Source: Tropicibacter alexandrii (GTDB lineage: Bacteria; Pseudomonadota; Alphaproteobacteria; Rhodobacterales; Rhodobacteraceae). From it: DNA of 64,000 nt. The notes under the pieces were generated by a model that had not been told where the DNA came from, did not search any database, and saw only the letters and a program-made list of their open reading frames with translations. The DNA lies in contig NZ_RCTZ02000004.1 of NCBI RefSeq assembly GCF_003667315.2, positions 186,001-250,000 of the forward strand. Direction: 5' to 3'. Positions 2,937 to 20,771 of the stretch are shown one piece after another. The stretch's first letter is position 1. Every line of letters starts with the position of its first letter. Both the position numbers and the translations under genes were made by a program.

Positions 2937-4166
2937 TCAGCTTACCATCGACTGCATGTCGAAGATCGGCAGCAGTATGGCCAGCACCACCACCAGCACG
3001 AAGGCCCCCACGACCATCATCAGCAGCGGGTCGAGCAGGGCTGCGATGCGCTTGCGGTCGTTTTCCAGCCAGCTTTCGACCAGCCGCGCCGCGCGCTCGG
3101 TCATCTTGCCGACCTTGGCGGATTGTTCGCCCGCGCTGATCAGTTGGCGGCAGACCGGCGGGATGAATTCCAGATGCGCCAGCCCGCCGGACAGGCTTTC
3201 GCCCCGTGTTATGTCCGTCGTGGCGCGCTGCGATTGCGCGACAAAACGCGAGACGCTGAGCACGCGGGTCGCGCTGCCCACCGCATCCAGCGCCGTCTGG
3301 CGGCTGGATATCACCAAGGCGAGCGTTTGCAGGTATTGTTGCGCCGCCGACAGCCGCATCAGCCGCCCGACGATGGGCAGGCGCAGCAAGAGCGCGTGCC
3401 AGCGGTCGCGAAACGCCGGAACCCGCAGGGCGGCCAGAAACAGGACCGTGCCGCCCAGCAGCCCGATCAGACAGGCCAGCCACCAGCGTTCAAGCCAGTC
3501 GACCGCGGCCAGCAGGGTTGTGGTGATCGCGGGCAAGGGTTGGCCCGTCGCCTCGAACATGGTGACGATTTCCGGTGCCACATTGGTCACGAGGATGCCG
3601 CAGACCAGCACCGAGACGGCAGCGACGAAGGCCGGGTAGATCAGCGCCGTGGCGATCTTGGACTGGTCCGCGCCCATGGTTTCGAGATGGTTCGCCAGTT
3701 CCTCGACCACGCGGGGCAGCTCGCCCGAGGTCTCGCCCGCGGCGATGGCGGCGATGTAGTAAGGGGGAAAGCCCGGATCGGCCATGGCCAGCGCATCGGC
3801 CAGCGTTTCGCCCTCGTGCAGGGCGGCGCGGGTGCTGACGGCGACGGATTCCAGCCGCTGCGAGCCGCCAGACGCGCCGACAGTGTCCAGCGCCATGTCC
3901 ACCGCCAGATCGGCAGAGATCAGAACCGCCAATTGCCGGGTAAAGATCGCCCGTTCATCGGTGGTCAGCCCGCGCCCGCGCCGGAACCCGGCCAGCCGCT
4001 TGCGGCCCCGGCCCGGCGTCGCCCGCTCGGCGCGGGCTTCGATTTCGGCGGCGAACAGGCCCTTGGCCTTGAGCAGTTGCGCGGCCTGCCCCCGGCTGTC
4101 GGCGGCCAGCGTGCCTTTGCGCCGTTTGCCCTCGGGGGTGTAGGCGACATAGCGGAAGGCGGTCAT
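2937..4166 (-). CDS. gspF: T2SS inner-membrane platform protein GspF
   Basis: This 409-residue protein is the polytopic platform of the type II secretion system; it couples the GspE ATPase to pseudopilus assembly. It starts MTAFRYVAYTPEGKRRKG, the usual cytoplasmic GspF opening. Two copies of the T2SSF domain follow (about residues 70-195 and 270-395), each ending in hydrophobic helices. The C-terminus, ALLDPLLMMVVGAFVLVVVL, is characteristic of the family. ATG at 4166 overlaps the gspE stop by 4 bp, which indicates translational coupling. It is the last gene of the gspC-D-E-F block. Confidence 0.93.
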   Translation of the reverse strand: MTAFRYVAYTPEGKRRKGTLAADSRGQAAQLLKAKGLFAAEIEARAERATPGRGRKRLAGFRRGRGLTTDERAIFTRQLAVLISADLAVDMALDTVGASGGSQRLESVAVSTRAALHEGETLADALAMADPGFPPYYIAAIAAGETSGELPRVVEELANHLETMGADQSKIATALIYPAFVAAVSVLVCGILVTNVAPEIVTMFEATGQPLPAITTTLLAAVDWLERWWLACLIGLLGGTVLFLAALRVPAFRDRWHALLLRLPIVGRLMRLSAAQQYLQTLALVISSRQTALDAVGSATRVLSVSRFVAQSQRATTDITRGESLSGGLAHLEFIPPVCRQLISAGEQSAKVGKMTERAARLVESWLENDRKRIAALLDPLLMMVVGAFVLVVVLAILLPIFDMQSMVS

Positions 4167-5614
4167 GGCGTGCTGCCCACGACGCGGGTCACCTCTGTGA
4201 AATCGGTGGCGCCGGTGGCGACAAAGGCCAGCGCCTCGCCGAACAGGGTTTCGCTGGGCGCCAGTGCCAGCGCCTTGATCGCCTGTTCCGAGGCACCCTC
4301 GTCGATGACCTGTTTCAGGGCTTCGGTGATCGTCACGATCTCGTAGATGCCGATCCGCCCGGCATGGCCGACGCCGTGGCAGGCGGGGCAGCCGACCGGG
4401 TCAAAGATCTGCGCGGGATGCGGCAGGCCGATGCTGTCGAAGGCGGCGGTTTCGGCGGCGTTCAGCGCGCGCGGGGTTTTGCAGGCGGGACAGAGCCTGC
4501 GCAGCAGGCGTTGCGCGATGATCGCCCGGACGGTCGAGGCGATCAGGTAGTCGTCCAGCCCCAGATCGCGCAGGCGGATGATCGCCGCGACCGAGGAATT
4601 GGCGTGCAGCGACGAAAACACCAGATGCCCGGTCAGCGCGGCTTGGGCGGCGGTGGTGGCGGTTTCCTTGTCGCGAATCTCGCCTACCAGAATGATGTCC
4701 GGGTCCTGCCGCAGCGCCGCGCGCAAGCCTGCCGCAAAGGTCAGGCCGATTTCCGCGTGGATCTGGCTTTGGTTGATGCCGGGCAGGTCATATTCGATCG
4801 GGTCCTCGACCGTCAGGATGTTGCGCTCGGCCTTGTTGGCGAGTTTCAGCAGCGAATACAGCGTCGTGGTCTTGCCCGAGCCGGTCGGGCCGGTGGCCAG
4901 AACGATGCCGTTCGGCGCGGCGGACAGCGCTTCGAGCGTGGCGACCTGCGGGGCGCGCAGGCCCAGATCGCCCAGCGGGCGCAGCCCGGCGGTCTTGTCG
5001 AGAACCCGCATCACCACCCGTTCGCCATAGTTCCCGGCCAGCGTCGAGACCCGGATATCGATGGACCGCCCGCCATAGCGCAGGGCGATGTGGCCATCCT
5101 GCGGCAGGCGGGTTTCGGCGATATCCATGCCCGCCATGACCTTGAGCCGTGAAATCACCCGCTTGGCGGGGGCGGCGGGGCGGTCATAGATCGTTTGCAG
5201 GAAGCCATCGACGCGGATGCGCGTGCGCAGCCCGCTTTCATGCGGTTCGACATGGATGTCCGAGGCGTGATCCTCGACCGCGCGACGCAGGAAGTGGTTG
5301 ACGAGCCGGATGACCGGCGCCTCGTCGCCGCCATCCAGCAGGTCCTGCGGCGGGGGTTCCCTCGAACTGTCATCCAGAACGAAGCTGTCGCTGTCCTCTT
5401 CCTCGATCCCGGTGGCCTGACCTTGGTAGTGGCGCATCAATTCGGTCTGAAAGGCGTCCTCGTCCAATTCGGTCAGCGCGGCCTCGGGGCCCGCGTGGCG
5501 CAGCGCCTCGCGCAGGCCGGCCAGCGTCGCACCGGGACCGGCGATCAAGGCACCCTCCGCCAGCAGGACCTTTTGATCCCGGGCAAAGGTAAAGGGCAGG
5601 CGGTCGGTCAACAT
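4163..5614 (-). CDS. gspE: T2SS ATPase GspE
   Basis: Cytoplasmic hexameric ATPase (483 residues) that powers pseudopilus assembly. Visible motifs are Walker A GPTGSGKTTT, the Asp box and Walker B region DPDIILVGEIRDKET, and the tetracysteine zinc element made of CPAC and CPAC about 45 residues apart (CMα subdomain). The N-terminal N1E domain is short compared with gammaproteobacterial GspE. ATG at 5614 has no clear ribosome-binding site and lies 63 bp after the gspD stop. The 3' end overlaps gspF by 4 bp. Confidence 0.94.
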   Translation of the reverse strand: MLTDRLPFTFARDQKVLLAEGALIAGPGATLAGLREALRHAGPEAALTELDEDAFQTELMRHYQGQATGIEEEDSDSFVLDDSSREPPPQDLLDGGDEAPVIRLVNHFLRRAVEDHASDIHVEPHESGLRTRIRVDGFLQTIYDRPAAPAKRVISRLKVMAGMDIAETRLPQDGHIALRYGGRSIDIRVSTLAGNYGERVVMRVLDKTAGLRPLGDLGLRAPQVATLEALSAAPNGIVLATGPTGSGKTTTLYSLLKLANKAERNILTVEDPIEYDLPGINQSQIHAEIGLTFAAGLRAALRQDPDIILVGEIRDKETATTAAQAALTGHLVFSSLHANSSVAAIIRLRDLGLDDYLIASTVRAIIAQRLLRRLCPACKTPRALNAAETAAFDSIGLPHPAQIFDPVGCPACHGVGHAGRIGIYEIVTITEALKQVIDEGASEQAIKALALAPSETLFGEALAFVATGATDFTEVTRVVGSTP

Positions 5615-5677
5615 GTCAAAATCAGACGAGGAAATGCAGCGTGTTGCAATGAAAATCTTGGCGAAGGGGCGCCCACC

Positions 5678-7615
5678 CTACCGGGCGAATTCCAGCCGTT
5701 TGGGCAGCGCGGGCATCAACCGTTCGATCACCAGCGCATCCGAGGTGCTGGCCTCGAACGGTTGGTTCAGGTCGGCCCCGTCAAAGGGCAGGCGGCCATC
5801 GGGAATGCGCGGGAAGGTGCCGTCGTCGCGCGGTGCGATGCGTTCGGTCACGGCGCGCGCCTCGCGGGCGATCTGCCTCGTATAGCGGGCCGCTTCGTGG
5901 TCGCTGTTGATGATGCGGGGCCGCATCATGATCAGCAAAACCCGTTGGTTGGACGAGACATTGCGCCCCCGGAACAGCCCGCCGATGACCGGCGCGCGGG
6001 ACAGGCCCGGCACCCGCTGCGACACCGCGCCCGAGCCATCCTCGACCAGACCGCCAAGGATGATGACGTGGTTGTCGCGCACCAGCGCGTTGGTGGACAG
6101 CGTGCGTTTCGAGGTGATCTCGCCCCCGGCGGCAGAGGCGGCGTTGGTGAGGTTCGACACTTCCTGTTCAATCTTCATCCGGACATTGTCGTCAAAGGTG
6201 ATCTGCGGGGTGACTTCCAGCGTCAGGCCCACATCCTGCCGCTGGATCGTCTGGAAGGGTTCGTTGGGAATCGCGCTGTCGCCGACCTGTGCGAAACTGC
6301 CCGTGACAAAGGGGACGTTCTGCGCGACGACGATGCGCGCCGCCTCGTTGTTCAGGGTCAGAATCGACGGTGTGGACAGCAGCCGGGTGCTGGACTGGCT
6401 GGCCAGCGCCGACAGGAACCCGGCAATGCCGCGCGACGAATCGCCCGCGCGCCCAGCGATGGTTCCGCCGGATCCCGGTGAGGTGACCCGGTTGGCGAGG
6501 ATCGAGCCCACCAGACCCGTCAGGGTCGGGCGACCGTCCAGCGAGAACTCGACCCCGCCGACCAGCGCGTCGTTCAAGAGCGCGCCGAATTGCACCGACA
6601 GGTCCGAGAAATTCTCGACCGAGAGTTCAAAGATCACCGCCTCGATCAACACCTGCGACGGCTTGCGATCCAGCGAGCGGATCGACGCGGCCACGGTTTG
6701 GATGCGCTCGGCGGGGCCGGTGATGATCAGCGCGTTTTGCTGCGGCTCCGCAACCACGGTGATGCCATTCAGGGTTTGCGCGCCTTCGCCCCCGGCGGCG
6801 GCGGCACTGCTGAAGGATTTCTGGATCACCGGTTCCAGTTCCTGCGCATCGGCGTAGTTCAGCCGCACCACTACGGTCGAGGTCGACCGCTGCGGTGTGT
6901 CCAATTCGTTGATCAGCCGCCGCACGCGCGACCGAAACTCGGGTCCGCCGGACACGATCAGCGCGTTGACCCGGCTGTCAGCCGACACGCTGGCGCCCTC
7001 GGGCATGATGTCGAGCGATTCCACCACGGCCACCAGATCGGCGGCCTGCGCGTTGTTCAGGCGCATGGTCTCGACGATCTCGTTGCGGGGCTGGTCCAGA
7101 CGCTGGACGATGTCGACGATGCGGCGATAGCTTTCGAGCCGGTCCGACAGGATCAGAATCCCGGCATCGGGAACGGCGGTCAGCACCGCTTCGGGGGCGA
7201 TCAGACGGCGCACGACCTCTTCGACCTCGGCGACGGGGACATTGTTCACGGGGATCACCCGCGTCTGGTAGCCGCCGCCGATCACATCCGGGCCGGGGGC
7301 CAGTTCGCGGGCGACATCCATCGGCACGATGCGGTCGGCCTCGACGCCCTCGACGATGGTCAAGCGGTTCAGTTCCAGCACGTTGAGGAAGATTTCGTAC
7401 AAGGCGGCGCGGGACACGTCGGACGGGGCCAGCACGGTGACCGTGCCCTGCACGCGCGGATCGAGGATGAAGTTGCGTCCGGTGCTGTCGGCGACGATGG
7501 CGACGAAGTCCCGCAGGTTCGCATCGCGCAGGTCCAGCCGGATCTGCGCCGCACCGGGCAGGCACAGCGCGAGCCAGATCAAGGCCGCAAGCACCGGTGT
7601 TCTAAAGATTCTCAT
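5678..7615 (-). CDS. gspD: T2SS outer-membrane secretin GspD
   Basis: Secretin of 645 residues forming the outer-membrane channel of the T2SS. The start at 7615 gives a clean signal peptide, MRIFRTPVLAALIWLALCLP, cleaved near GAAQ; upstream in-frame sequence belongs to the end of gspC. After it come an N0 domain (IRLDLRDANLRDFVAIVADS), three N1-type repeats (about residues 110-330) and the secretin domain with the conserved stretch around VPFVTG and LSTNALVRDNHVIILGGL. The ATG lies 14 bp inside the 3' end of gspC, so the two are translationally coupled. No pilotin gene of the GspS type is adjacent; the lipoprotein at 8618-9124 may fill that role. Confidence 0.94.
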   Translation of the reverse strand: MRIFRTPVLAALIWLALCLPGAAQIRLDLRDANLRDFVAIVADSTGRNFILDPRVQGTVTVLAPSDVSRAALYEIFLNVLELNRLTIVEGVEADRIVPMDVARELAPGPDVIGGGYQTRVIPVNNVPVAEVEEVVRRLIAPEAVLTAVPDAGILILSDRLESYRRIVDIVQRLDQPRNEIVETMRLNNAQAADLVAVVESLDIMPEGASVSADSRVNALIVSGGPEFRSRVRRLINELDTPQRSTSTVVVRLNYADAQELEPVIQKSFSSAAAAGGEGAQTLNGITVVAEPQQNALIITGPAERIQTVAASIRSLDRKPSQVLIEAVIFELSVENFSDLSVQFGALLNDALVGGVEFSLDGRPTLTGLVGSILANRVTSPGSGGTIAGRAGDSSRGIAGFLSALASQSSTRLLSTPSILTLNNEAARIVVAQNVPFVTGSFAQVGDSAIPNEPFQTIQRQDVGLTLEVTPQITFDDNVRMKIEQEVSNLTNAASAAGGEITSKRTLSTNALVRDNHVIILGGLVEDGSGAVSQRVPGLSRAPVIGGLFRGRNVSSNQRVLLIMMRPRIINSDHEAARYTRQIAREARAVTERIAPRDDGTFPRIPDGRLPFDGADLNQPFEASTSDALVIERLMPALPKRLEFAR

Positions 7616-8408
7616 CGACAATAACCTCAAGTGACATGCGTGCGCCAGCGCGCAAAATTTCGACATCAAAGCTACGTTCACGCAATAGTTGTGGCGTGGC
7701 TTTGGACAGCGCGTCCATATCGCCCGCGGGAATTTCGTTCAGTGTCAACACAATGTCGCCCTTTTGCAACCCGAGTTGATCGTAGAACCGGCCTTTGCGC
7801 ACCCAGATGATTTCCTGTGCGAACAGCCCGTTGCCGCGATCGACGATCTGCGTTCCCCCGGCCAGACCAAGCGTGCGTTGAAAGCCGTCCTCGCGCAGTT
7901 GTCGAAGCGACAGCTGCACCGGGTTCAGCTGGGCCGAAACCGCGAGCTGTCCGGTGGCGACCGGCGGGGCGCTGGCATCCGGGTCCGCAAAGCCGATGAC
8001 GAGCCGCTTGTTGTCGCGCACGATCTCGACGCCTTGCGGGGTGATGCTTTCGACGGTGAAGCCATCGGGCAGGAGGGTGCCATGCTCGACGATCTGGTCG
8101 CCCTCGGGGCCGGTCACGATGGCCCAGCCATTCTGTTCGGCGGCAACCAACCCCTTGAGTGTGTAATTGGCGGCGGGCACGGCTTTGGGCGGGGCTTCGG
8201 CGACCGGGGCGGCGGGGGGCACACCGAAGAGCGCTGGCCAGACCCGGTCAGGCGCGGCCTGCGCGGCGGCTTCTGTGGGGGCCATGTCGATGGCCGCCTG
8301 CTGTGCGCCCGTGTTGGGCCGCAGGGTCAGCACCAAGGCCAGCGCAACAGCGCCTAGGCCGACCGAGGCCATGCCGAAGAAATTGAGGATATGGTCCGTG
8401 CGGATCAC
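7602..8408 (-). CDS. gspC: T2SS inner-membrane protein GspC with PDZ domain
   Basis: GspC (268 residues) links the inner-membrane platform to the secretin and helps select substrates. A short cytoplasmic tail is followed by one membrane helix (about residues 13-30), an Ala/Pro-rich linker, the HR domain (YTLKGLVAAEQNGWAIV onward, about 90-150) and a C-terminal PDZ domain (about 185-268, with LQKGDIVLTLNEIPAGD). Translation starts at GTG 8408. It is the first gene of the gspC-D-E-F block, and a 209-bp gap to the divergent lipoprotein gene at 8618 probably contains its promoter. Confidence 0.9.
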   Translation of the reverse strand: MIRTDHILNFFGMASVGLGAVALALVLTLRPNTGAQQAAIDMAPTEAAAQAAPDRVWPALFGVPPAAPVAEAPPKAVPAANYTLKGLVAAEQNGWAIVTGPEGDQIVEHGTLLPDGFTVESITPQGVEIVRDNKRLVIGFADPDASAPPVATGQLAVSAQLNPVQLSLRQLREDGFQRTLGLAGGTQIVDRGNGLFAQEIIWVRKGRFYDQLGLQKGDIVLTLNEIPAGDMDALSKATPQLLRERSFDVEILRAGARMSLEVIVDENL

Positions 8409-8617: not shown

Positions 8618-9124
8618 GTGAAGCTGCATGTTCTGCCCGTAGCGATGGCGCTTTTGGTGATTTCGGCCTGTGACGACACGGGCCCCTTCGCGGGAAAATC
8701 CCTGAGCGCGGGTTTTGGCACGACGTTCCAGGAACGTTACTTCGCCGCGCGCGAGGATCTCGAAGACGGGAATTTCAACGCCGCCGCGCGCAAGTATCGT
8801 GGCCTGAGCTCTGAATTCGCCGACAGCGACCTTGCCGCACGGCTCGACCTCGAATTGGCGCATGCGTTGCTGCGGGGCGGTGACTACGCGGAAGCGGCGG
8901 AGGTGTCGGCCTCTGTCATGCGCGGGGCGCAGGGGCCGCTGCGGGGGCTGGCGCTGGCCGTTCATGGCACGGCGCGGCACGAGATGGCCAAGGCCAAGGG
9001 CAACCCCGCAGATTTCGCCGCTGCAGAAGCCGCGCTAAGCGACATGATCGAAAACTACCCGGATCTCGACCGGGGCGGGGCGATGGCTCGCCGCCTGTCG
9101 ATCCTGCGATCCGGCGGCAACTGA
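8618..9124 (+). CDS. TPR-like lipoprotein inside the T2SS locus
   Basis: A 168-residue protein with a lipoprotein signal (MKLHVLPVAMALLVISAC; the lipobox is VISAC). The rest is predicted alpha-helical, with TPR-like spacing (EDLEDGNFNAAARKYRGL; LLRGGDYAEAAEVSASVM). GTG at 8618 is preceded by GAGG with 8 bp spacing. It is the only gene on the plus strand within the gsp cluster; its 3' end lies 4 bp from that of gspN and it diverges from gspC. Lipoproteins encoded beside a secretin often act as its pilotin, and TPR pilotins exist in type IV pilus systems. A pilotin role here is therefore an inference from context only. Confidence 0.75.
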   Translation: MKLHVLPVAMALLVISACDDTGPFAGKSLSAGFGTTFQERYFAAREDLEDGNFNAAARKYRGLSSEFADSDLAARLDLELAHALLRGGDYAEAAEVSASVMRGAQGPLRGLALAVHGTARHEMAKAKGNPADFAAAEAALSDMIENYPDLDRGGAMARRLSILRSGGN

Positions 9125-9128: not shown

Positions 9129-9866
9129 TTAGGGCACCGAAAGGCGCAGCCGCCAGTTGCCGTCCTCGGTCTTGTCACCCCAATACAGCAGCGCGTCCGA
9201 CCAGTCCGGCGGCATTTGGGGACCAGGCACCAGCGTTGCCGCCAATGTGGCCTGAACCCGGTCCAATCGGCCCGAGGCGGTGCCGCCAAGCCCGGCGACC
9301 GGTCCGTCCGGAATGTCGAATTCCAGCCGCCAGCCGCCGCCGACATCCGCCCTCAGCCGAAAGGTGCCGTCGCTCAGCGCATCGCCGCCAAAGGACAGGC
9401 CTTGGATACGGCCTTCGCCGACAAGCTGGACAAGGCGCTGATCGGACAAGCGGTATTGCGCGTCGAGCCGGTCAAAGCGCAGCACGCCCGCCGGGATCGA
9501 CAAGGGCATGTCGGCGCTGACCAGCGCAAGATCGACGATGCCGCGGCCTTGCGACAGCACAACGGTGTCGAAGGGCGCGTGGGCGCTGACCTTGCCGGTC
9601 ATCGCGACACCGGTCCCGGTCAGGCTGGCCTGCCAGTCGGGCCCGGCGGCAGACAGGCCGTCGAGCCGCCAGTCGAGGTCGAGCGGGGCAAATGGGGTCG
9701 CCACCTGCGCCCGACCGGCCAGCAGGCCGGAGGCGCCTGACACGGTGTCTGTCCAAGCCGGAAGCTGGCTTGGCGCCACCTGCCGCAGATGGTCGATCCG
9801 GCCAAAGCCGATGATCGCCACGGCCACGCCCAGAAGTAGCCCAAGGATGCCAAGCAGAAACTTCAT
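9129..9866 (-). CDS. gspN: T2SS protein GspN
   Basis: This 245-residue protein has one N-terminal membrane anchor (MKFLLGILGLLLGVAVAIIG) and a periplasmic beta-rich region built from repeating short strands, as in the GspN family. GspN is an accessory, non-universal T2SS component of the inner membrane. ATG at 9866 overlaps the gspM stop codon; a GTG one codon upstream (9869) is an alternative start. Position as last gene of the gspG-N block supports the call, because sequence similarity in this family is weak. Confidence 0.75.
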   Translation of the reverse strand: MKFLLGILGLLLGVAVAIIGFGRIDHLRQVAPSQLPAWTDTVSGASGLLAGRAQVATPFAPLDLDWRLDGLSAAGPDWQASLTGTGVAMTGKVSAHAPFDTVVLSQGRGIVDLALVSADMPLSIPAGVLRFDRLDAQYRLSDQRLVQLVGEGRIQGLSFGGDALSDGTFRLRADVGGGWRLEFDIPDGPVAGLGGTASGRLDRVQATLAATLVPGPQMPPDWSDALLYWGDKTEDGNWRLRLSVP

Positions 9867-10348
9867 CACGCGGGCTCCAGAATCAGCGAGGCCGCGACCT
9901 GACCGGGGGTGTCGAGCGCCTGCACGGCGAAGCTGGCCAGCCGATAGCCCAACTGCGTTTCCAGCGTGGCGGTCCAGCGCATCACCTCTTCGAAGGGGAC
10001 CGTATCAAAGCGCAGGTCGATGCCGCCGCCGCTGCGGCCCGACAGGCCGGTCACCTGCGCGCGCAGCCCGGCGGTGACAAGGCTTTGTTCCAGACCGGCC
10101 AGACCGACTGCCTCGGTTCGCGGGGCCTCGACCTGTGGCAGCGGCGGGTAGGCGCGCGCCTGATCCTGCACCCAGCGATGCAGGTCCCGCGCGGCGGCCA
10201 GATCGCGTTCGGCGGCGCGGCGTTCCTCCAACTGTGGGGCGAGCAGCAGCATGACCGCGCCAAAGGGCAGCGCCAGCGCCAGAAGCGCACCCACCAATCG
10301 CCGTTCGCGGGGGCTGAGAGTGACAAGGATTTCCGAAACTCCGCGCAT
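9866..10348 (-). CDS. gspM: T2SS assembly protein GspM
   Basis: A 160-residue bitopic inner-membrane protein: cytoplasmic residues 1-17 with the family-typical LSPRERRLV, one membrane helix (about 18-37), a coiled-coil stretch (EERRAAERDLAAARDLHRWV) and a small periplasmic ferredoxin-like domain at the C-terminus. GspM binds GspL and supports the GspE/F platform. The ATG follows the gspL stop codon with no gap, and the 3' end overlaps the gspN start. Confidence 0.88.
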   Translation of the reverse strand: MRGVSEILVTLSPRERRLVGALLALALPFGAVMLLLAPQLEERRAAERDLAAARDLHRWVQDQARAYPPLPQVEAPRTEAVGLAGLEQSLVTAGLRAQVTGLSGRSGGGIDLRFDTVPFEEVMRWTATLETQLGYRLASFAVQALDTPGQVAASLILEPA

Positions 10349-11485
10349 CTACTGCACCCCGGTCAATTCGAGTTCCGCCGTCACACCGCTTTGCGGATTG
10401 ACCGCCGAGGTGACGACCCGGGCGCGGGCGGCTGGCCCATTCAACTCGGCCACAAGGCTTTCGAGCGCCGCGAAATCCGGCAGGGACACGTCCAGCCGCA
10501 CCGCCCCGCGGCGGGTCACCTGAAGCTGCGAAACCGGGACCGCGCGATTGGTCAGCACCTCGGACGCGAAAAAGACGAGATCCACTGCGCCGGTCCTTTC
10601 CGTCCGGGCGGAGGCCTCTTGGCGTGCGGCGATCACCCGACCGACCTGTTGGCGCAGGTCGAGGATCGGGCCATTGGGAATGAAGGCCGCGCGGGCGACC
10701 TGAACCGAGGCGGCGCGGATGGTTTGCGCCTGTTCGCGCAAGGCCCCAGTTTCGATCCACAAGGCGGCGGCCAAGGCTGCCAGCCCCGCGAACATGGCCA
10801 CCATCGGCACCCGCCAGCGCCGCACCACCTGCCGCATCTCGCGCAGGTCCGCTGCCGGGTCGCGCAGCAGGTTGAAGGCCAGCTCGTCGGGGCCGGGGGC
10901 CCAAGGGTCGACCGGCTCGGTCGACGGCGTCAGGTCATGCGCCGTCAGCAGCGCAGAAAGCCCCGGCGGAACCGGGCCCGCCACATGCACGCGGGTCGGC
11001 AGGTCATTGCCACGCAGGGCGGTGCCCAACTGCAACAAGGCCGCCGGAAGCGGTGCGGCAAAGCCGTCCTTGGGCCCGAGCCTTGCGATGACGCGGCCGT
11101 CCTCGACATGGATGACCCATGCATCGGGCAGGGCCGGCAGGGTGAGATAGTCGGGCAGCAGTGCCCTTGGCGGATGGCGCCCGTTCAGGCGCGTCCGGGC
11201 ATCGACGGCGAGGGCGTGATCGACGACGACCGCCGCTCCTTGCCCGGCAAGCTGGCCGACGCGAAACTCCAAACCCTCGATGCCGCGTTGAAGGACGCTT
11301 TCCAGCTCGGACCGGGCGACCTGCTGGCGGGCGGTCTCGCGCAGGCTTTCGGGCAGGTCGAGCCGGTATAGCGGTGCCCGCTCGCCCGGAAGGCTCGCGA
11401 TATACGGCCCCCTTGGCGGATCCTGCGGATCCGACAGCGACCAGACCGGCAGGGTCTGGGATTTGGAAGAGGTCCGGTGTTTCAC
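10349..11485 (-). CDS. gspL: T2SS inner-membrane protein GspL
   Basis: A 378-residue protein that anchors GspE to the membrane. A cytoplasmic actin-like region (about residues 1-205) is followed by one membrane helix (VPMVAMFAGLAALAAALWIE), a short coiled coil and a periplasmic ferredoxin-like domain with the pattern LQVTRRGAVRLDVSLPDFAA. GTG at 11485 is chosen because GTGA overlaps the gspK stop by 4 bp, the coupling used throughout this operon; a longer in-frame extension to 11602 would lie wholly within gspK. The cytoplasmic part is divergent from gammaproteobacterial GspL. Confidence 0.87.
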   Translation of the reverse strand: MKHRTSSKSQTLPVWSLSDPQDPPRGPYIASLPGERAPLYRLDLPESLRETARQQVARSELESVLQRGIEGLEFRVGQLAGQGAAVVVDHALAVDARTRLNGRHPPRALLPDYLTLPALPDAWVIHVEDGRVIARLGPKDGFAAPLPAALLQLGTALRGNDLPTRVHVAGPVPPGLSALLTAHDLTPSTEPVDPWAPGPDELAFNLLRDPAADLREMRQVVRRWRVPMVAMFAGLAALAAALWIETGALREQAQTIRAASVQVARAAFIPNGPILDLRQQVGRVIAARQEASARTERTGAVDLVFFASEVLTNRAVPVSQLQVTRRGAVRLDVSLPDFAALESLVAELNGPAARARVVTSAVNPQSGVTAELELTGVQ

Positions 11486-12393
11486 GGCAGGTCGAGGCGC
11501 AGTTTCTGGGTCACGGACCCAGATTGGGCAGAGCGGTGCAGATAGATCAAGCGCTCTCGTACATGGTCGCCCACCCGCGCCGACAGCGTGGCCGAAAACC
11601 ACTCTGACGATACGGCGAACCGGCTGGCCCCGAAACCCTCCAGCGCCGCGTCGGGCAGAAGCCGGGCAGCGCGTGCGGCGAAATCCCCACGGCTGGTGAA
11701 AGCGTTGCCATCCCTGTCCCGCACGAAGGCTTCGGCGCCCCGGCGACCGGCGGTCGGGATCAGCGCCGCCAGAACAGGTATGGGCGCGGTGTTGACGTTC
11801 AGCCGACTGTCGGGCGGAAGGGCGGTGACATAGGGCATCAGCCGCGCAAGGGTCGCGTCATCCATGCCCGGCACCGCGCGCAGGTCCAGCGGATGCCGGA
11901 TCGCGCCGCCGGTGGCCGCGATTGGCAGCGGGCGGTTGCTGTAGGCCACGGGATTGGGCGGCCCGCCGTCGCGGACGTGATCGCGGATCGCACTGGCCAC
12001 GGCGACCGGCAGGCCCAGATCCTGAAACATGCGTTGGAAGGCCGCCGGGGTGAAGCTGTCATCGGGATCGGTCAGCCAGTTGACGTTGAACAGGCCTTGC
12101 AGATCGGTGATCTGCCCGCCAAGGCTGCCACGGTCGATCGGTACCGTGTAGCCTTGGGTTGCCCAAAGCTCGCCCAGATGGTCGCTGTCCGGCGAGTCCT
12201 CCCAGTCGCGTTCGAGGACCTGTTCCAGCAGCATCTCGCCCGCCGACAGGTACAGCCCGGCCTGATCGCCATCGCGCAGCGTGCCCAGCCGCGCCGTCCC
12301 CGTTGCGGCCAATGCCAGAAGCCCGGCGGCGACCCCCGCCATGGCCATCGTCAGTATCAGCGCATTCAACAGGACGAAGCCGCGATCGCTCAT
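11482..12393 (-). CDS. gspK: T2SS minor pseudopilin GspK
   Basis: This 303-residue protein caps the pseudopilus tip together with GspI and GspJ. The prepilin leader is only five residues, MSDRG, before FVLLNALILTMAMAG. Asn replaces the usual Glu at mature position 5, as expected for GspK. The large globular domain contains LQGLFNVNWL (the conserved FNVN segment), the helix-hairpin-helix-like HPLDLRAVPGMDDATLARL and LNVNTAP. ATG at 12393 overlaps the gspJ stop by 4 bp. It is a substrate of the gspO peptidase. Confidence 0.9.
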   Translation of the reverse strand: MSDRGFVLLNALILTMAMAGVAAGLLALAATGTARLGTLRDGDQAGLYLSAGEMLLEQVLERDWEDSPDSDHLGELWATQGYTVPIDRGSLGGQITDLQGLFNVNWLTDPDDSFTPAAFQRMFQDLGLPVAVASAIRDHVRDGGPPNPVAYSNRPLPIAATGGAIRHPLDLRAVPGMDDATLARLMPYVTALPPDSRLNVNTAPIPVLAALIPTAGRRGAEAFVRDRDGNAFTSRGDFAARAARLLPDAALEGFGASRFAVSSEWFSATLSARVGDHVRERLIYLHRSAQSGSVTQKLRLDLP

Positions 12394-12980: not shown

Positions 12981-13354
12981 GGCTCTGCCTCCGGGTCGGC
13001 GCGCCTGAGATAGCCGGTCAAGAGCGAGCCGGTGCCGTCCGGCCCGCGCGCAAGCACCCTCAGTTCGACATAGCCTACGGAGGTCTCGGCCTCGATGACC
13101 TCGATGTCCCAGTCGCGCCCGGCAAAGCGGACCTGATCGGGCAGCCTGCGCCCGGCATCCAGCCCCAGCGCCCGGTACTCGGCGATCCGGTTCAGCGCGA
13201 CCTCATGGGCGAACAGCCGCTCTGGCGCGGTGGCAACGCTGGCGCGCGCGGTGTTGAGGACGCGGTAGGCGGCGACGGTGCCGATCGACAGGACAAGCAC
13301 GGCCACCATGACCTCGATCAGGGTGATGCCGCGATCCTGACGCGCGGCGCTCAT
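12977..13354 (-). CDS. gspI: T2SS minor pseudopilin GspI
   Basis: A 125-residue minor pseudopilin: leader MSAARQDRG, then ITLIEVMVAVLVLSIGTVAA with Glu at mature position 5. The small C-terminal domain includes the family-like DWDIEVIEAETSVGYVELRV. ATG at 13354 overlaps the gspH stop (ATGA). In-frame sequence upstream of this ATG belongs to gspH and gspG and is not translated as part of this protein. Confidence 0.9.
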   Translation of the reverse strand: MSAARQDRGITLIEVMVAVLVLSIGTVAAYRVLNTARASVATAPERLFAHEVALNRIAEYRALGLDAGRRLPDQVRFAGRDWDIEVIEAETSVGYVELRVLARGPDGTGSLLTGYLRRADPEAEP

Positions 13355-13854
13355 GACTGGGCCTCGCAGGTCAGGTCCTGCCAGCCGTCCGCGAGGCACA
13401 GCCACATCCCACCCGGCCCGTCGAGCAGCAGTTCGAAGCTGCTGGACCGGCGATCCGGCAAGAGGTGGATCAGGGTCCAGTCGCCGTCCCGCGTGGTGCC
13501 GGTGCCGGACGTCACGGTGAGGGTGCTGCGCAGGCGCTGCGGTGTGCCAAGTTGCAGCCCGTCCGGGCCGATCTCTGCGCGCGCCAAGCGGTCGGGCCCC
13601 AGCGCCAGAACCGCCTGTCGTCCCGACAGGACCGCCTCGCTGCGCAGGTTTGCCAAAGTGTCGCGCAGGATCGCGACGTCGGAATTGGCCTGCCTGTCGC
13701 GATGGCCCACCGACAGGGTTGCGCCCACCGAAAGGATCGAAATCAGCGCGACCACGATCATCAACTCGATCAGGGAAAAGCCGCGATCGCCGGTGGTGGG
13801 CCCGCGCAGGGCGTGGGCTGGATGTCCGAACGCTGGTCGGCCTAGTTGTCCCAA
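13351..13854 (-). CDS. gspH: T2SS minor pseudopilin GspH (non-ATG start)
   Basis: Minor pseudopilin with cleavage motif TTGDRG followed by FSLIELMIVVALISILSVGA (Glu at position 5) and a C-terminal beta domain of GspH type. No ATG or GTG lies in frame between the end of gspG and the leader. TTG at 13854 overlaps the gspG 3' end by 13 bp and gives 167 residues with a rather long 25-residue leader. CTG at 13809 would give a 10-residue leader, closer to the other pseudopilins. The start is therefore unresolved, but the identity is clear from the leader and from its place between gspG and gspI. Confidence 0.85.
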   Translation of the reverse strand: MGQLGRPAFGHPAHALRGPTTGDRGFSLIELMIVVALISILSVGATLSVGHRDRQANSDVAILRDTLANLRSEAVLSGRQAVLALGPDRLARAEIGPDGLQLGTPQRLRSTLTVTSGTGTTRDGDWTLIHLLPDRRSSSFELLLDGPGGMWLCLADGWQDLTCEAQS

Positions 13855-14297
13855 GAGCCCAGATCGGCATCCGCGCCGCTGCCGCCTTCCTGACCATCCG
13901 CCCCGAGGGTGAATATGTCGAATACGCCATGCACGCCCGGTTCGAGATACTGGTAATCGTTCCCCCAAGGGTCCTTGGGCAGGCGGTCGATATAGCCGTT
14001 CGTCGCCCAGTTCGCGGGCACGGGCGGGGCGGTCGGCTGATCGACGAGGGCGGCAAGCCCCTGTTCCGTCGTCGGATAGCGCAGGTTGTCGAGCCGATAC
14101 AGCTCGACCGCGCTGGTCAGCACAGAGATGTCGGACTGCACGCGGGCGATGCGGGCTTGGTCCGGGCGGTCGATGACGCGCGGCACGATGACCAGCGCGA
14201 GGATCGACATGATCACCACGACGACCATCAGTTCGAGCAGGGAAAAGCCCGCTTGCGCGCCTTGCTTTTCACCGGCGGATTGGCTGTAATCAGGCAT
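13842..14297 (-). CDS. gspG: T2SS major pseudopilin GspG
   Basis: The major subunit of the pseudopilus, 151 residues. A 17-residue leader (MPDYSQSAGEKQGAQAG) precedes FSLLELMVVVVIMSILALVI, with Glu at mature position 5. The C-terminal half has the GspG landmarks LRYPTTEQGLAALV, PKDPWGNDYQYLEPG and the calcium-loop region FDIFTLGADGQEGG. It is the first gene of the gspG-N block. ATG at 14297 lies only 20 bp from the divergent start of the rhombosortase gene, and no ribosome-binding site is visible, so a leaderless message is possible. Confidence 0.94.
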   Translation of the reverse strand: MPDYSQSAGEKQGAQAGFSLLELMVVVVIMSILALVIVPRVIDRPDQARIARVQSDISVLTSAVELYRLDNLRYPTTEQGLAALVDQPTAPPVPANWATNGYIDRLPKDPWGNDYQYLEPGVHGVFDIFTLGADGQEGGSGADADLGSWDN

Positions 14298-14317: not shown

Positions 14318-15013
14318 ATGAATCTTCTTTCACTCTATCCCACGAAAAAGCCTGACTCAATCCTGTTGCGGGTCGTGGGTGTGACCGCCGTGATGGCGGT
14401 GGTGATGGGACTGTTGCATCTGGGCGGCGATGCCACCCGTGGCGCCCTGCTGTTGGAACGCGACGCGGTGCTGAACGGTCAGGTCTGGCGGCTGGCAACC
14501 GCGCATCTGGTGAACCTGTCGGGCACGCACACCTTTCTGAACACGCTGGGGCTGGGCCTGATCATCGTGACCCTGTGGTCGATCCTGACCGTCGAGACCC
14601 TGCTGCGGGCCATCATGTTTTCCGCTGCGGCGATCAGCCTTGGCTGGATCGTCCTGATGCCGGCGGGCGTGACCTATGTGGGGTTTTCGGGGGTGACCCA
14701 TGGCGTGATGGCCTGGGGCGGGCTGACGATCTGGAAGCGTGGTCCGAAATGGTTTGCCGTGGTGATCCTGACCTGCCTTCTCGCCAAGCTGGGGCAGGAG
14801 TTCTGGAACGGCGCGGTGCCGGGCGCCGATGCGGCGATCGGCGGGCGGGTCAGCTTTGTCTCGCACACCCTTGGCTCGCTGGGCGGCACGCTTGCGGCCT
14901 TCGAGGGGCCGGTGCTGGGGCGCTTGGCGCTTCTGGTGCTGTGTGTCTGGCTGTCCGTCATCCACGCCGACCGCGAGGCGGCGTCGCAGGCGGAAAGCCA
15001 TCAGGATGGGTGA
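14318..15013 (+). CDS. rrtA: Rhombosortase-like rhomboid intramembrane protease
   Basis: A 231-residue rhomboid-fold serine protease with about six membrane helices. Catalytic Ser124 is in GFSGVTHG and His183 in FVSHTLGS. The segment GQVWRLATAHLVNLSGTHTF corresponds to the conserved WR and HxxxN-type loop of rhomboids. Small rhomboids of this kind (rhombosortases) process proteins ending in a GlyGly-CTERM signal, as RrtA does for VesB in Vibrio cholerae. A protein with such a tail is encoded at 17957-20728. The ATG at 14318 is preferred; a TTG at 14297 is possible. The gene overlaps gspO by 8 bp. Confidence 0.85.
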   Translation: MNLLSLYPTKKPDSILLRVVGVTAVMAVVMGLLHLGGDATRGALLLERDAVLNGQVWRLATAHLVNLSGTHTFLNTLGLGLIIVTLWSILTVETLLRAIMFSAAAISLGWIVLMPAGVTYVGFSGVTHGVMAWGGLTIWKRGPKWFAVVILTCLLAKLGQEFWNGAVPGADAAIGGRVSFVSHTLGSLGGTLAAFEGPVLGRLALLVLCVWLSVIHADREAASQAESHQDG

Positions 15014-15737
15014 TCCGCTGGTCTGGCTGGTCCTGCTGCTGGGCGCACCTGTCGGATCGTTCATGGCGGCCTTCGCGGATCGGCTGTGTCTGGGCCGGTC
15101 GATTTGGCTGCCCTCTAGCTGTGCCTCCTGCGGGGTTCGCATGCGCTGGCGCGACCTGATCCCACTGTTCAGCTACCCGGTCAGACGAGGCCGCTGCCAC
15201 GATTGCGGCGGTCACATTCCCGCGCGGCTCTGGCTGGCGGAACTGCTGGGTCTGCTGGCGTCGCTTGTTGCGGTGGCGGTCACGCAGGCCTCGGTCGACC
15301 TGCTGGCCTTGGCGGTGGTCCTGTGGTGCCTGCTGGGGCTGGCTTTGTGCGATCTGGCCTGTTTCCGCCTGCCAGATGCGCTGACCGGCCTGCTGTTCGT
15401 GTCGGCGGTCTGTCTGGCATTCGCCGAACACCGGCTGCCAGAGGCGCTGGCGGGCGCGGTGACCGGGGCGGGTGTGCTTTGGCTGCTGCGCTTCGTCTAT
15501 CGCCGCTTGCGCGGACGCGAGGGGTTGGGGCTTGGGGATGTCAAGCTGGCGGTCGGGCTGGGCGCGGCGCTGGGGCCGATGGCCCTGCCATGGCTGGGAT
15601 TGATCGCATCGGCCAGCGCGCTGTTATGTGTCTCAACCGGCGCATGGGGCGGTGTGAATCGCCACACGGCGCTGCCTTTCGGTCTGTTCCTCTGTCTCGG
15701 CGCGGCAGCGCTTCTGGCGGTGCGGCTGGTCCGCTGA
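15006..15737 (+). CDS. gspO: Prepilin peptidase / N-methyltransferase GspO
   Basis: A 243-residue polytopic aspartyl protease that cleaves and N-methylates the pseudopilin leaders. The N-terminal methylase part has the two zinc-binding CxxC pairs (CASC and CHDC) around PLFSYPVRRGRC. The protease part has the catalytic aspartates in CDLACFRLPDALT and in the GxGD motif GLGLGDVKL. ATG at 15006 lies inside the rhombosortase gene, so the two are translationally coupled. Their pairing puts the two proteases of the pathway, one for pseudopilins and one for the substrate tail, under one promoter. Confidence 0.92.
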   Translation: MGDPLVWLVLLLGAPVGSFMAAFADRLCLGRSIWLPSSCASCGVRMRWRDLIPLFSYPVRRGRCHDCGGHIPARLWLAELLGLLASLVAVAVTQASVDLLALAVVLWCLLGLALCDLACFRLPDALTGLLFVSAVCLAFAEHRLPEALAGAVTGAGVLWLLRFVYRRLRGREGLGLGDVKLAVGLGAALGPMALPWLGLIASASALLCVSTGAWGGVNRHTALPFGLFLCLGAAALLAVRLVR

Positions 15738-15768
15738 CCGGACGGCGAATCGCCGCGCGGGACGATGG

Positions 15769-16989
15769 TCAGGCGAATATGACCGGCACGCGCTCGATCA
15801 GCATGAAGGCTGCGACCGAGCCCATGGCGATCAGCGCGGCCTGCTTCAGCCGCAATGTCCAATTCCGCGAGATATGGGCGAGTCCGGCGAATACAGCCAG
15901 AACGACGACGACGATCATCAATTGGCCAATTTCGATCCCCACGGTGAAGGCGGCCAATGCCTGCACCAATTCCGGCGAATCCGGGCCCAATACGTTTCCC
16001 AGCACAAAAGAGAATCCGAACCCGTGCAGAAGGCCAATTCCGGTATACAGCAAGGCCGACGAGCGGGTGCCCCGAAGGCTGGCCAAGGCTGCCATGATGA
16101 TGGTCGCTGCGATGGCGGCCTCGATGGCGGGGATGAACCAGCCGGAGGTCGGCACATAGCCCAAGAAGCCCGCCACGAGCGTCACGGCATGGCCCAACGT
16201 GAACGCGGTCACGTTCCGCACGAGACCCCAGCCGCCAACCGCGCCGAGCGCCATGGCGACGACCAACAGCACGTGATCGAGACCTTCGAGAATGTGCAGC
16301 ACGCCTTGATAGGCGTATTCCAGCGCGACGCCGATCTGGCTGGTCGGCAGGACCAGCACCTGCGCCAACTGTCCGCCCCGCACCAGACTGCGGGACGGGC
16401 TGACCCGGTGATCGATGATGTGGTTGTCGATGGCGACGTCCTCGGGCAAATCCAGCGCAGGAAAGCCCGACTGCACGACCAGAGGCGCATCCGTGGCGGC
16501 GAAGCCAAGGCTGACCGTCATGTCGACATAGCCGTCCGAGATCGGCACCTCGCCGGTGGCATCGGGCTGGCGGAGCGAGTCGCGCGCGGCGGCGGGGCTG
16601 ACGAGGGCCTGCAACGGCAGTTCGGACAGTATGCGATAGGCGCGCACGCGGGGGCTTCCGTCCTGCGTGCCGATCTTCCATGTGAGGCTGTCTGCCAACC
16701 GCGCTGCAAAGGCGGCGCGATGGGCCGCGACGGCCTCGGTGGATAGGGCATAAACCGGCGTCTCGGCGGTGCCACGATTGATCAGGAACCCGTGCTCGTC
16801 CGGGGCGGCGCCGGTCAGGATGTCCCCGAACAAAAGCGGCAGCGGAGTCCGGATGTGGATTTCCGTGGTCGTCTCTTCGGTGGTGATGACGAATTGCCGG
16901 ACTTTCGTGCCCGGATCGAAATGGGCAAGCAGCGGCCCTGCCAATGCAACAAGGCAGAAAACAAGAATGGTCAATGGGGGTCTTATCAA
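15769..16989 (-). CDS. HupE/UreJ-type membrane protein with periplasmic domain
   Basis: A 406-residue protein with a signal-like start, a soluble extracytoplasmic region (about residues 22-215), then six or so membrane helices. The membrane part has the HupE/UreJ_2 family signatures LEGLDHVLLVVAMA, FTLGHAVTLVAG and GLLHGFGFSF, which place His residues inside helices. HupE/UreJ proteins are thought to carry nickel or cobalt. Here no hydrogenase or urease genes are adjacent. It converges on gspO (31 bp apart) and diverges from the secreted-protein gene at 17150. The start is TTG at 16989. Confidence 0.8.
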   Translation of the reverse strand: MIRPPLTILVFCLVALAGPLLAHFDPGTKVRQFVITTEETTTEIHIRTPLPLLFGDILTGAAPDEHGFLINRGTAETPVYALSTEAVAAHRAAFAARLADSLTWKIGTQDGSPRVRAYRILSELPLQALVSPAAARDSLRQPDATGEVPISDGYVDMTVSLGFAATDAPLVVQSGFPALDLPEDVAIDNHIIDHRVSPSRSLVRGGQLAQVLVLPTSQIGVALEYAYQGVLHILEGLDHVLLVVAMALGAVGGWGLVRNVTAFTLGHAVTLVAGFLGYVPTSGWFIPAIEAAIAATIIMAALASLRGTRSSALLYTGIGLLHGFGFSFVLGNVLGPDSPELVQALAAFTVGIEIGQLMIVVVVLAVFAGLAHISRNWTLRLKQAALIAMGSVAAFMLIERVPVIFA

Positions 16990-17085
16990 ATCATCCGCCC
17001 CTTCAATTCGCGCAGTCGGCTAAATCTATATCACGAGAAAAAAATCGTAATTTACAGGCTATGCGCGTGGTTTCAATGATCGACG

Positions 17086-17114
17086 TTGACGCTAGCGAAT
17101 TGGATTGTTAACGT
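17086..17114 (+). promoter_or_regulatory. Candidate sigma-70 promoter for the CLCA-like gene pair
   Basis: TTGACG at 17086-17091 is followed, after 17 bases, by TAACGT at 17109-17114, in a short A+T-rich stretch of an otherwise G+C-rich region. A transcript starting near 17121 would have a leader of about 30 bases before the ATG at 17150. The -35 match is good and the -10 match moderate. It is the best candidate seen in the 160-bp divergent region. Confidence 0.4.
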
Positions 17115-17149
17115 CTAGTCAAATTTTTCTCGTCTCTGCAGGGGTGGCC

Positions 17150-17857
17150 ATGCTCCGCTGGATATTTTTGATAATGAATTCAATGTGTCTCTTGGGTGCC
17201 GCGGCTGCGGCTCAAGCGCGCGTTTGTGGTGTGTCCGTCACGCCTTTCGTGCAGGTCATCGAGGGGCAGCTGGACGCCGGGACGACCACCTTCACCGCGT
17301 ATCGTCTGACCCGCGACGGGCAACTTTCCATCGCGCGTTGGACGGACAACAACGATCTTCTGGGGGTCGCGAAGACCGTCGAACTGGGCGGCCCGGCCTA
17401 TGACAGGGCCCGAACGGCGCTGTCGCGGATCGACCCGTCAGAGGCCATGCGCGAAGCCCAACCCAGTCTGGGCGGCCCGGATCCGTACTCTTTGCAGATC
17501 GCGATCCAAGGCGAAGACGCGCTGACGCGCCACCTGCGCCAGACCGCCCCGTCGGATGTCGCGTCCGGCCTGATCGCGGAATGGCAAGGGGCCGGGCGGC
17601 TGAAGCGACCGGCGCGCGGGTCCTATGTCTGGACCTTGCCGATCCCCGCCGAGCCCGGTGGCGAGGATGTGCGCCTTGCCGCGCAGGCTTGTCCCGAGGG
17701 GCTGGCCAGCTGGGTGGGCGCGGCCTTCGTTGGGGCGGTCGCGCACAAGCTGCCGCAGGGCGCGCCTGACGCGCAAGACATTCAGCCCGGACGCGCGGTT
17801 TTCAGCGCGCGATTGCCGGATGGATACGCCCATTTCGGGATCGTCTCACGGCAGTGA
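17150..17857 (+). CDS. Secreted or periplasmic protein of unknown function, upstream of the CLCA-like gene
   Basis: A 235-residue protein that I do not recognise. It has a probable signal peptide (MLRWIFLIMNSMCLLGAAAA, cleaved near AQA), then a soluble domain with two cysteines (RVCGVSV and AQACPEG) that could form a disulphide. ATG at 17150 follows the purine-rich GCAGGGGTGG; a TTG at 17105 is possible but would precede the predicted promoter region. The gene is 99 bp upstream of, and codirectional with, the CLCA-like protein. A role as its chaperone, inhibitor or partner is inference from proximity. Confidence 0.7.
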   Translation: MLRWIFLIMNSMCLLGAAAAAQARVCGVSVTPFVQVIEGQLDAGTTTFTAYRLTRDGQLSIARWTDNNDLLGVAKTVELGGPAYDRARTALSRIDPSEAMREAQPSLGGPDPYSLQIAIQGEDALTRHLRQTAPSDVASGLIAEWQGAGRLKRPARGSYVWTLPIPAEPGGEDVRLAAQACPEGLASWVGAAFVGAVAHKLPQGAPDAQDIQPGRAVFSARLPDGYAHFGIVSRQ

Positions 17858-17956
17858 GGCAAGTGAAGGTGTCCGCTTCAGTGACACCGAATTTGAGGCG
17901 AGTACGCAGCCCTTGGGGCGATTTTTTGGAACGTATTAGAGGGAGTTCAAGGTATC

Positions 17957-20728: not shown

Positions 20729-20747
20729 CATCCCTGACACGACTTCG

Positions 20748-20771
20748 GGGGGCCGTTCGCGGCCCCCTTTT
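20748..20771 (+). terminator. Rho-independent terminator after the CLCA-like gene
   Basis: An 8-bp G+C stem (GGGGGCCG with CGGCCCCC) and a TTCG tetraloop are followed at once by TTTT, 20 bases after the stop codon at 20728. This closes the 17150-20728 transcription unit. Confidence 0.9.

Follow-up and report, generated by a model that had tools for sequence, protein, structure and literature searches.

A stretch of 64,000 nucleotides from the genome of Tropicibacter alexandrii (contig NZ_RCTZ02000004.1, positions 186,001 to 250,000), hereafter called the window, encodes between its positions 2937 and 20728 a type II secretion system (T2SS) comprising GspC to GspO, including GspN, together with a rhombosortase and an exported protein, the cargo, whose C-terminus carries a tail resembling the GlyGly-CTERM sorting signal. 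On the minus strand, from 14297 down to 2937, the genes gspG-H-I-J-K-L-M-N are followed by an opposite-strand gene for a BamD-like TPR lipoprotein and by gspC-D-E-F. On the plus strand, the rhomboid gene, divergent from gspG, and gspO come first, and then a HupE/UreJ_2 gene (on the minus strand), the gene of a small secreted protein and that of the cargo, which is placed 2.9 kb beyond the rhombosortase gene. An earlier sequence-only reading of this DNA, made without database searches, had assigned a gsp set, a rhomboid and a tailed protein to this region, and this has been confirmed; the same order of 18 genes in Marinovum algicola argues against chance. The cargo end given there as 20771 has to be corrected, as the gene ends at 20728. 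Machine, prepilin peptidase, sorting protease and tailed protein are indeed together, all of them within one block. The central features are the following:

14318..15013 (alternative TTG start at 14297), plus strand: rhombosortase, divergent from gspG; TIGR03902 98.6 bits, Ser/His pair
15006..15737, plus strand: gspO, prepilin peptidase (A24); PF06750 and PF01478
17957..20728, plus strand: cargo, CLCA-like HExxH metalloprotease with VWA domain, 923 amino acids (aa); VWA PF00092 57 bits
20639..20728, plus strand: GlyGly-CTERM-like tail, SSGGALGPLSVLISALLAAVGLRQRRRRV; read from the sequence, with GGxxGP in five Rhodobacterales homologues

Rhombosortase and prepilin peptidase

By the curated cut-off the rhomboid is classed as a rhombosortase and not as GlpG, with 98.6 bits in TIGR03902 (cut-off 84) and 16.2 bits in the GlpG model (cut-off 250). 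The sequence-only reading had proposed this comparison and had named a better score for GlpG-type families as the result that would overturn it, which has been ruled out. The GFSG serine and the second histidine were correctly counted there as residues 124 and 183 from the ATG at 14318 (131 and 190 from the TTG at 14297), and both are preserved in a 48% identical relative. In a sequence search of the rhombosortase against solved structures, no match was obtained at E ≤ 1. The window's genome has one rhombosortase above the cut-off and two further weak TIGR03902 matches below it, and control genomes also yield weak matches below the cut-off; this could favour an ordinary GlpG-type quality-control protease whose adjacency to the T2SS is coincidental. 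However, the rhombosortase model is ahead by 82 bits and the adjacency to gspG recurs in 42 of 120 gammaproteobacterial loci, which makes such a protease extremely improbable.

The genes of the rhombosortase and of GspO overlap in all three loci examined that have both, by 8 nucleotides (nt) in the window (gspO ATG at 15006, rhombosortase stop at 15011-15013), by 8 nt in Marinovum and by 14 nt in the metagenome-assembled genome (MAG) DOLJORAL78_59_82. Of the coupling of both genes proposed from the sequence alone, the overlap of the reading frames is supported.

The cargo and its tail

The cargo carries HEWGHYAYGLFDEY upstream of its VWA domain, and the metalloprotease residues H181-E-W-G-H185 (HEWGHY) and D192-E193 (DEY) are nearly invariant at H, E, H, D and E in an alignment of 21 rows, some of them partial. 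An HExxH motif followed by a VWA domain, the arrangement of CLCA proteins, is found in this protein. In its AlphaFold model (pLDDT 79.4, pTM 0.79), the VWA part matches the solved VWA domain of CLCA1 with a TM score of 0.81 (target length) and 24% identity, although other VWA domains give better E-values than CLCA1. Since its scores stay below the cut-offs of the Pfam and NCBI models for CLCA (PF08434, 14.2 of 25.6 bits; TIGR00868, 78.5 of 900.85 bits), the protein is named here CLCA-like and not CLCA. Among plasmid records, one cargo match has been found, of 17% over the VWA part.

The tail of the cargo has the tripartite order of such signals, with a Gly-rich stretch and GG, a helix and RQRRRRV, and contains no Cys; in the structural model, the C-terminus appears as a low-confidence stretch followed by a single terminal helix (residues 903-920). 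The motif GG[AG][ILVF]GP is common to five Rhodobacterales tails, GG being invariant. The designation of this end as a GlyGly-CTERM by the sequence-only reading stands for its architecture and falls for the corresponding model, TIGR03501 (cut-off 15.5 bits), which gives no match to the window tail at E ≤ 10 and thus does not class it as a GlyGly-CTERM. The tail of the uncultured Rhodobacteraceae genome 4-145 (G087) also stays below the cut-off, with 12.7 bits, and three homologue tails of Shewanella and Pseudoalteromonas obtain 28.8, 24.0 and 26.7 bits. This general model misses alphaproteobacterial tails. In the window's genome it finds no target above the cut-off, but it is also blind to the known tail and is therefore useless for counting tails there. 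The one weak TIGR03501 match there (C8:4262-4324, 13.5 bits) has been rejected; it lies inside and not at the end of a 513-aa open reading frame (ORF) that, as judged by eye, resembles a membrane transporter. Within the window, the cargo is the only protein fitting a tail pattern.

The best of the weak matches of the window tail is to IPTL-CTERM (14.1 bits, cut-off 20.5), followed by SVAGG (12.1 bits, cut-off 150), and this would suit a sorting signal of another kind (IPTL- or PEP/VPLPA-like), processed by some exosortase encoded elsewhere in the genome, with a different role for the rhombosortase. Such an explanation is very unlikely, as no IPTL or PEP motif is seen ahead of the helix, GG is kept in all five Rhodobacterales tails, proteins of the same family in Shewanella and Pseudoalteromonas bear clear GlyGly-CTERM tails, and the tail accompanies the rhombosortase in 7 of 8 genomes.

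This last count comes from a cargo scan of genome contigs that gave 45 loci, for 24 of which the genome was searched for rhombosortase; tails were judged by eye, and some by pattern as well. Rhombosortase above the cut-off is present in 8 of these genomes. In Granulosicoccus, which has a rhombosortase, the CLCA-like protein ends in an unrelated stretch without a tail. Among the 16 genomes without rhombosortase above the cut-off, 4 (Chloroflexi) show weaker matches (43-51 bits); a contig end truncates one locus, and the tail occurs in 1 of the 15 assessable genomes, that of Thalassovita, in an interrupted gene. Tailed proteins thus do accompany the enzyme, and the case that the earlier reading had held to be fatal to it, a rhomboid with a T2SS but never with a tailed protein, does not apply. 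In Chloroflexi, CLCA-like proteins (L024, L032, L035, L036, L037 and L041) end in (V)YLPL(I/V)xR or similar, and not in a GG tail.

Occurrence of the block in Rhodobacterales

Among 292 Rhodobacterales genomes, rhombosortase has been found in 3, the cargo in 3 and GspD in 58 (57 above the cut-off), enzyme and cargo being both present in G000 and G087. In the one other species of the window's genus covered here, rhombosortase was not found. In Marinovum algicola FF3, all 18 genes have an order and orientation identical to those of the window, and the fetched flanks contain no homologue (E ≤ 1e-20) of any window ORF from outside the block. In G087, 16 of the 18 genes are present and rearranged; the cargo and rhombosortase genes are adjacent and convergent, the latter diverging from gspH, and no gspG or gspO is detectable in this block. 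The second T2SS of this genome holds a gspG 76% identical to that of the window, and its pseudopilin may serve both systems. In the MAG DOLJORAL78_59_82, also of Rhodobacterales, gspN to gspG and the rhombosortase-gspO pair are on one contig and the cargo on a different one. The block is therefore real, conserved and rare: of the co-occurrence across Rhodobacterales that the earlier reading had wished to see checked, two further genomes give evidence (18 of 18 and 16 of 18 genes), in an order where the enzyme is confined to 3 of 292 genomes.

In Thalassovita litoralis (G257, L017 1052-3805), the cargo gene keeps its tail, has an in-frame TGA and is located at a contig start; no rhombosortase was found in this genome, and no GspD at E ≤ 1e-60. 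This gene looks like a case of decay following enzyme loss, or of an assembly error. Two other alphaproteobacterial rhombosortases (G525, L078 10108-12213; G059, L010 561-2825) are beside a VIT+VWA protein with a Gly-rich tail, with no T2SS genes nearby; in G059, the enzyme adjoins the tailed protein, no T2SS gene occurs in the fetched surroundings and the T2SS is on another contig. A tRNA-Pro (CGG) gene has been located at 20871-20947, directly behind the cargo gene of the window. An integration site at this gene has found no support, six loci scanned, including both covering the Marinovum block, having no tRNA.

Rhombosortase loci in Gammaproteobacteria

The link between rhombosortase and T2SS is recurrent, and wider in reach than the block itself. 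Rhombosortase above the cut-off is present in 126 of 369 gammaproteobacterial genomes, and up to 14 kb have been retrieved around 120 of the 130 sites. In 46 of these 120 loci the enzyme is at a T2SS locus, being divergent from gspG in 42 (41 identified by script and L204 by coordinates), placed between gspF and gspG with their orientation in 2, upstream of gspC-F in 1 and at 2.7 kb from gspG in 1. Granulosicoccus, a gammaproteobacterium, has the divergent arrangement; in L196 and L209, the gene lies inside the T2SS operon, in its direction, in the gspF-gspG interval. Since one flank is shorter than 2.5 kb in 15 of the 74 loci not at a T2SS, 46 of 120 is a lower bound. In the linked set given by the script, the gap between rhombosortase and gspG is at most 0.47 kb (median 0.18 kb), and the probability of adjacency to a single T2SS by chance in a genome of about 3 Mb is estimated at well under 1%. 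The T2SS protein GspG is found in 39 of 40 gammaproteobacterial genomes with an unlinked rhombosortase vs 21 of 40 without rhombosortase, the latter including many small genomes and being unmatched for size or completeness. The recurrent pairing of machine and enzyme suggests that both work as one line.

Tailed ORFs have been sought in the same stretches with a pattern that recovers all 11 known tails and matches none of 4 negatives; it replaced a first pattern that missed 3 of the 11, and loses L151 and L206, both caught by the first one. A tailed ORF is present in the fetched stretch of 1 of 45 linked loci (L135) vs 15 of 74 unlinked ones. Nine of these 15 are plausible and at most 0.3 kb from the enzyme and six are probably false, some matches in unlinked loci resembling ordinary membrane proteins (L122, L125, L127, L161, L185 and L233). 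The chance of seeing a cargo is lower at linked loci, because T2SS genes occupy one side. L135 (G730) has two tailed ORFs (3-1085 and 1698-4382) together with rhombosortase and a T2SS operon. According to these counts, in most of these gammaproteobacterial loci the enzyme has one partner, machine or cargo, and the alphaproteobacterial block has both. The statement of the sequence-only reading that the parts are normally scattered is right only in part: in 46 of the 120 loci the enzyme is at a T2SS already, and the unusual feature is a tailed cargo in addition.

The same counts allow another explanation, namely a general line of T2SS and rhombosortase with several unlinked substrates, in which the CLCA-like protein is merely nearby and nothing is dedicated. 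It would account for the 44 of 45 linked gammaproteobacterial loci without a tailed ORF in the fetched stretch and for the MAG, where the cargo is apart from T2SS and rhombosortase, and it agrees with the situation in Vibrio and Shewanella, whose genomes commonly have several rhombosortase targets (Haft and Varghese, 2011; PMC3237569). It does not account so well for the cargo trio (HupE-like, small secreted and CLCA-like proteins) being within the same colinear 18-gene block in Marinovum, nor for the cargo directly adjoining the rhombosortase in G087 and being at most about 3.1 kb from it in the window, Marinovum and G087. Such a general line is a serious alternative, though not the favoured one, and the block may be dedicated to one cargo.

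Evolution of the association

The trees are quick ones of short proteins, with many open forks, and in that of GspE some long branches meet. The enzyme tree, built by a quick method from 128 rows, unites the four T2SS-linked alphaproteobacterial rhombosortases in one set (support 100) and places the three without T2SS neighbours in a set of 12 unlinked ones (support 96); according to this tree, enzymes of the G525/G059 type are a second, separate alphaproteobacterial lineage. Linkage to the T2SS requires 18 changes on the tree vs 39.6 with shuffled labels, and 0 of 500 shufflings were as low. A single T2SS clade defined by rhombosortase is unsupported, the linked state being clustered but spread across many branches.

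The GspE and GspG proteins of the window belong to sets of 8 Rhodobacterales rows (support 100 and 99), with five rows each from T2SS loci that lack rhombosortase; in the GspE tree, these relatives include the second T2SS of G087. An import of the whole T2SS from Gammaproteobacteria has been rejected on these grounds. In the fetched ordinary Rhodobacterales T2SS loci, no match to the rhombosortase profile was found. In L280, L273 and L283, which have no rhombosortase, gspO is directly divergent from gspG, so that the enzyme looks inserted between genes that were already adjacent. The trees point to a T2SS native to Rhodobacterales, to which the rhombosortase was added.

Other genes of the block

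The core T2SS components C to M and the prepilin peptidase O are all encoded in the block, H and I being recognised through motif, position and homology. Apart from gspO, given above, the genes are:

2937..4166, minus strand: gspF; TIGR02120 340.6 bits, below its cut-off of 424; PF00482
4163..5614, minus strand: gspE, ATPase; TIGR02533 533.6 bits, below its cut-off of 630; PF00437 and GSPE_N1E
5678..7681, minus strand: gspD, secretin; TIGR02517 394.5 bits, above its cut-off of 351.35; also Pfam
7602..8408, minus strand: gspC; TIGR01713 31.1 of 101.6 bits, PF11356 26.7 of 27 bits; Marinovum counterpart 51% identical at the same position
8618..9124, plus strand: BamD/YfiO-like TPR lipoprotein, encoded antisense in the gspN-gspC interval; TIGR03302 38.3 bits, below the cut-off, PF13525 just above the cut-off
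9129..9869, minus strand: gspN; PF01203 29.4 bits, slightly below the cut-off of 29.6
9866..10348, minus strand: gspM; PF04612 71.4 bits
10349..11602, minus strand: gspL; TIGR01709 68.3 bits, above the cut-off of 65; real start probably further inward
11482..12393, minus strand: gspK; PF21687 and PF03934
12390..12980, minus strand: gspJ; PF11612 43.4 bits
12977..13354, minus strand: gspI; prepilin motif PF07963; Marinovum gene at the same position 61% identical
13351..13968, minus strand: gspH, a long ORF with its real start nearer 13800; prepilin motif at residues 61-83; Marinovum homologue 44% identical
13842..14297, minus strand: gspG, major pseudopilin; PF08334 134.8 bits
15769..16989, minus strand: HupE/UreJ_2-family membrane protein; PF13795 100.2 bits
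17105..17857 (start likely 17144), plus strand: small secreted protein, its gene immediately preceding that of the cargo; without a Pfam match

For gspE and gspF the T2SS model is the best match, yet it stays below its equivalog cut-off; gspH and gspI match the prepilin N-methylation motif only, and are named from their position and the Marinovum homology. The BamD/YfiO-like TPR lipoprotein, possibly a candidate pilotin-like assembly factor, is kept in Marinovum and G087. Its gene is also found in L280, L283 and L279, which are Rhodobacterales T2SS loci without rhombosortase.

GspN has been followed further. In gammaproteobacterial loci with linked rhombosortase, a protein of the Pfam T2SSN family follows gspM in 34 of the 35 that could be tested, 10 linked loci being not testable; L187, where there is room for gspN, has no ORF. 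In all, 37 of 38 tested ORFs match T2SSN. The single failure is L280, a locus without rhombosortase, where tblastn gives a match to the window GspN but Pfam does not; with the same query, no match was obtained in the rhombosortase-less L273, L283, L279 and L284. Both rhombosortase-negative gammaproteobacterial loci tested also have GspN. Taken together, the gammaproteobacterial and Rhodobacterales counts indicate that GspN accompanies rhombosortase-linked systems without being confined to them. In Acinetobacter baumannii, GspN has been reported to be required for the surface lipoproteins of the T2SS (PMC12802150); in the accessible text of that paper, the words "rhombosortase" and "GlyGly-CTERM" occur once each, within a reference title.

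The HupE/UreJ_2 gene accompanies the cargo gene in Marinovum, G087 (30%, partial) and Granulosicoccus. In the last of these (L018), it stands with the cargo homologue, and no T2SS or rhombosortase gene was found at that locus. The gene of the small secreted protein precedes that of the cargo in L016, L017, L019, L020 and L026, and a small, apparently secreted protein is also seen by eye directly upstream of the CLCA-like gene in Shewanella (L021 9304-9891) and Chloroflexi (L024 8377-9345). The model of the window protein (pLDDT 80.7) is best matched by Mago nashi (Foldseek E 3e-4, TM 0.45 by target length; VIA Z 9.9 over 115 residues, the next group having 5.5). A known protease inhibitor has not been found among the structure matches listed, which excludes nothing.

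Proposed function

The block probably combines export by a T2SS with an anchoring step of its own. Sec would export the CLCA-like cargo, which would stay in the inner membrane through its C-terminal helix, the rhombosortase would cut the tail at the GG motif, and the new C-terminus would be joined to an ethanolamine-containing lipid, by analogy with VesB of Vibrio cholerae (PMC6219818). The adjoining T2SS would then carry the cargo across the outer membrane, and the lipid would keep it on the surface. The lipidated end may be carried by GspN, which assists the lipoproteins of the T2SS in Acinetobacter, and the HupE-like and small secreted proteins, which complete the cargo trio beside the rhombosortase, might also have some part in this route. 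The enzyme seems to have been inserted into the gspG-gspO interval of a T2SS of Rhodobacterales type.

Some of the observations given above weigh against this proposal, namely the failure of the window tail to match TIGR03501 and its weak likeness to other tail models, GspN in both rhombosortase-negative gammaproteobacterial loci and the GspN-like match of L280, the tailless protein of Granulosicoccus, the lack of a detectable gspG or gspO in the G087 block, the separate cargo contig of the MAG and the make-up of the rhombosortase-negative genomes used for comparison. The rhombosortase might also act by plain hydrolysis, in which case the block would be a system of release and not of display; part of VesB does enter the medium in V. 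cholerae (PMC6219818). In the same study, however, VesB processed by the rhombosortase is retained at the surface with a glycerophosphoethanolamine moiety and it is VesB without an intact tail that is released, and the block contains GspN, which is linked to lipoprotein export; plain hydrolysis is therefore considered unlikely.

Beyond the export line with its anchoring step, a wider proposal can be made tentatively, with confidence a little short of even. Rhombosortase, which has been placed by gspG repeatedly (42 of 120 gammaproteobacterial loci divergent, 2 in the gspF-gspG interval, and the alphaproteobacterial clade), would be an optional built-in module of the T2SS that turns secretion into surface anchoring; GspN would be a carrier of C-terminally lipidated cargo; and the Rhodobacterales block would be a compact travelling cassette of machine, anchoring enzyme and protease cargo with helper genes. 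The recurrent link of enzyme and machine, together with GspN, makes the handling of lipid-anchored cargo and the coupling of processing to export testable at one locus, and so compact a block would offer a small model for study in bacteria that are not pathogens. For the bacterial CLCA-like proteins, with their patchy distribution, it also indicates how they are likely to reach the cell surface.

Comparison with known systems

The closest known system is that of RssP, VesB and the T2SS in Vibrio cholerae, with which the block shares the rhombosortase family, a tripartite tail on an exported protease and a T2SS in the genome. The differences are that V. cholerae encodes six tailed proteins, whereas the block has one with machine and enzyme; that the literature covered mentions no linkage of enzyme and T2SS genes in V. 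cholerae, whereas the window has a single block; and that VesB is trypsin-like and the cargo CLCA-like. Dedicated pairs have been described by Haft and Varghese (2011), with a tailed protein near the rhombosortase gene in 16 of 21 single-target genomes; T2SS genes go unmentioned in the section that treats such pairs, Table 1 includes no alphaproteobacterium as judged from genome names, and the authors state that they found no evidence for a T2SS subclass marked by rhombosortase (PMC3237569). In the rhombosortase and GlyGly-CTERM literature covered, which lacked most subscription journals, no report of the rhombosortase/gspG neighbourhood was found. The VIT+VWA loci of G059 and G525 resemble the window in the enzyme family and in a neighbour with a Gly-rich tail, and differ in having no T2SS gene in the fetched surroundings and in the branch of the enzyme tree. 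With the prokaryotic CLCA proteins, which are patchily distributed and whose few carriers include the alphaproteobacterium Citreicella sp. SE45 (PMC3650047), the cargo shares a CLCA-type metalloprotease with a VWA domain; the word "sortase" has no occurrence in the accessible text of that paper, and the window adds the tail and the neighbouring export line. Finally, the myxosortase/MYXO-CTERM system also combines a C-terminal tripartite tag, its cleavage, a T2SS and the cell surface (PMC11980579), but it employs another protease family and a Cys-containing motif, whereas the tail of the window is without Cys.

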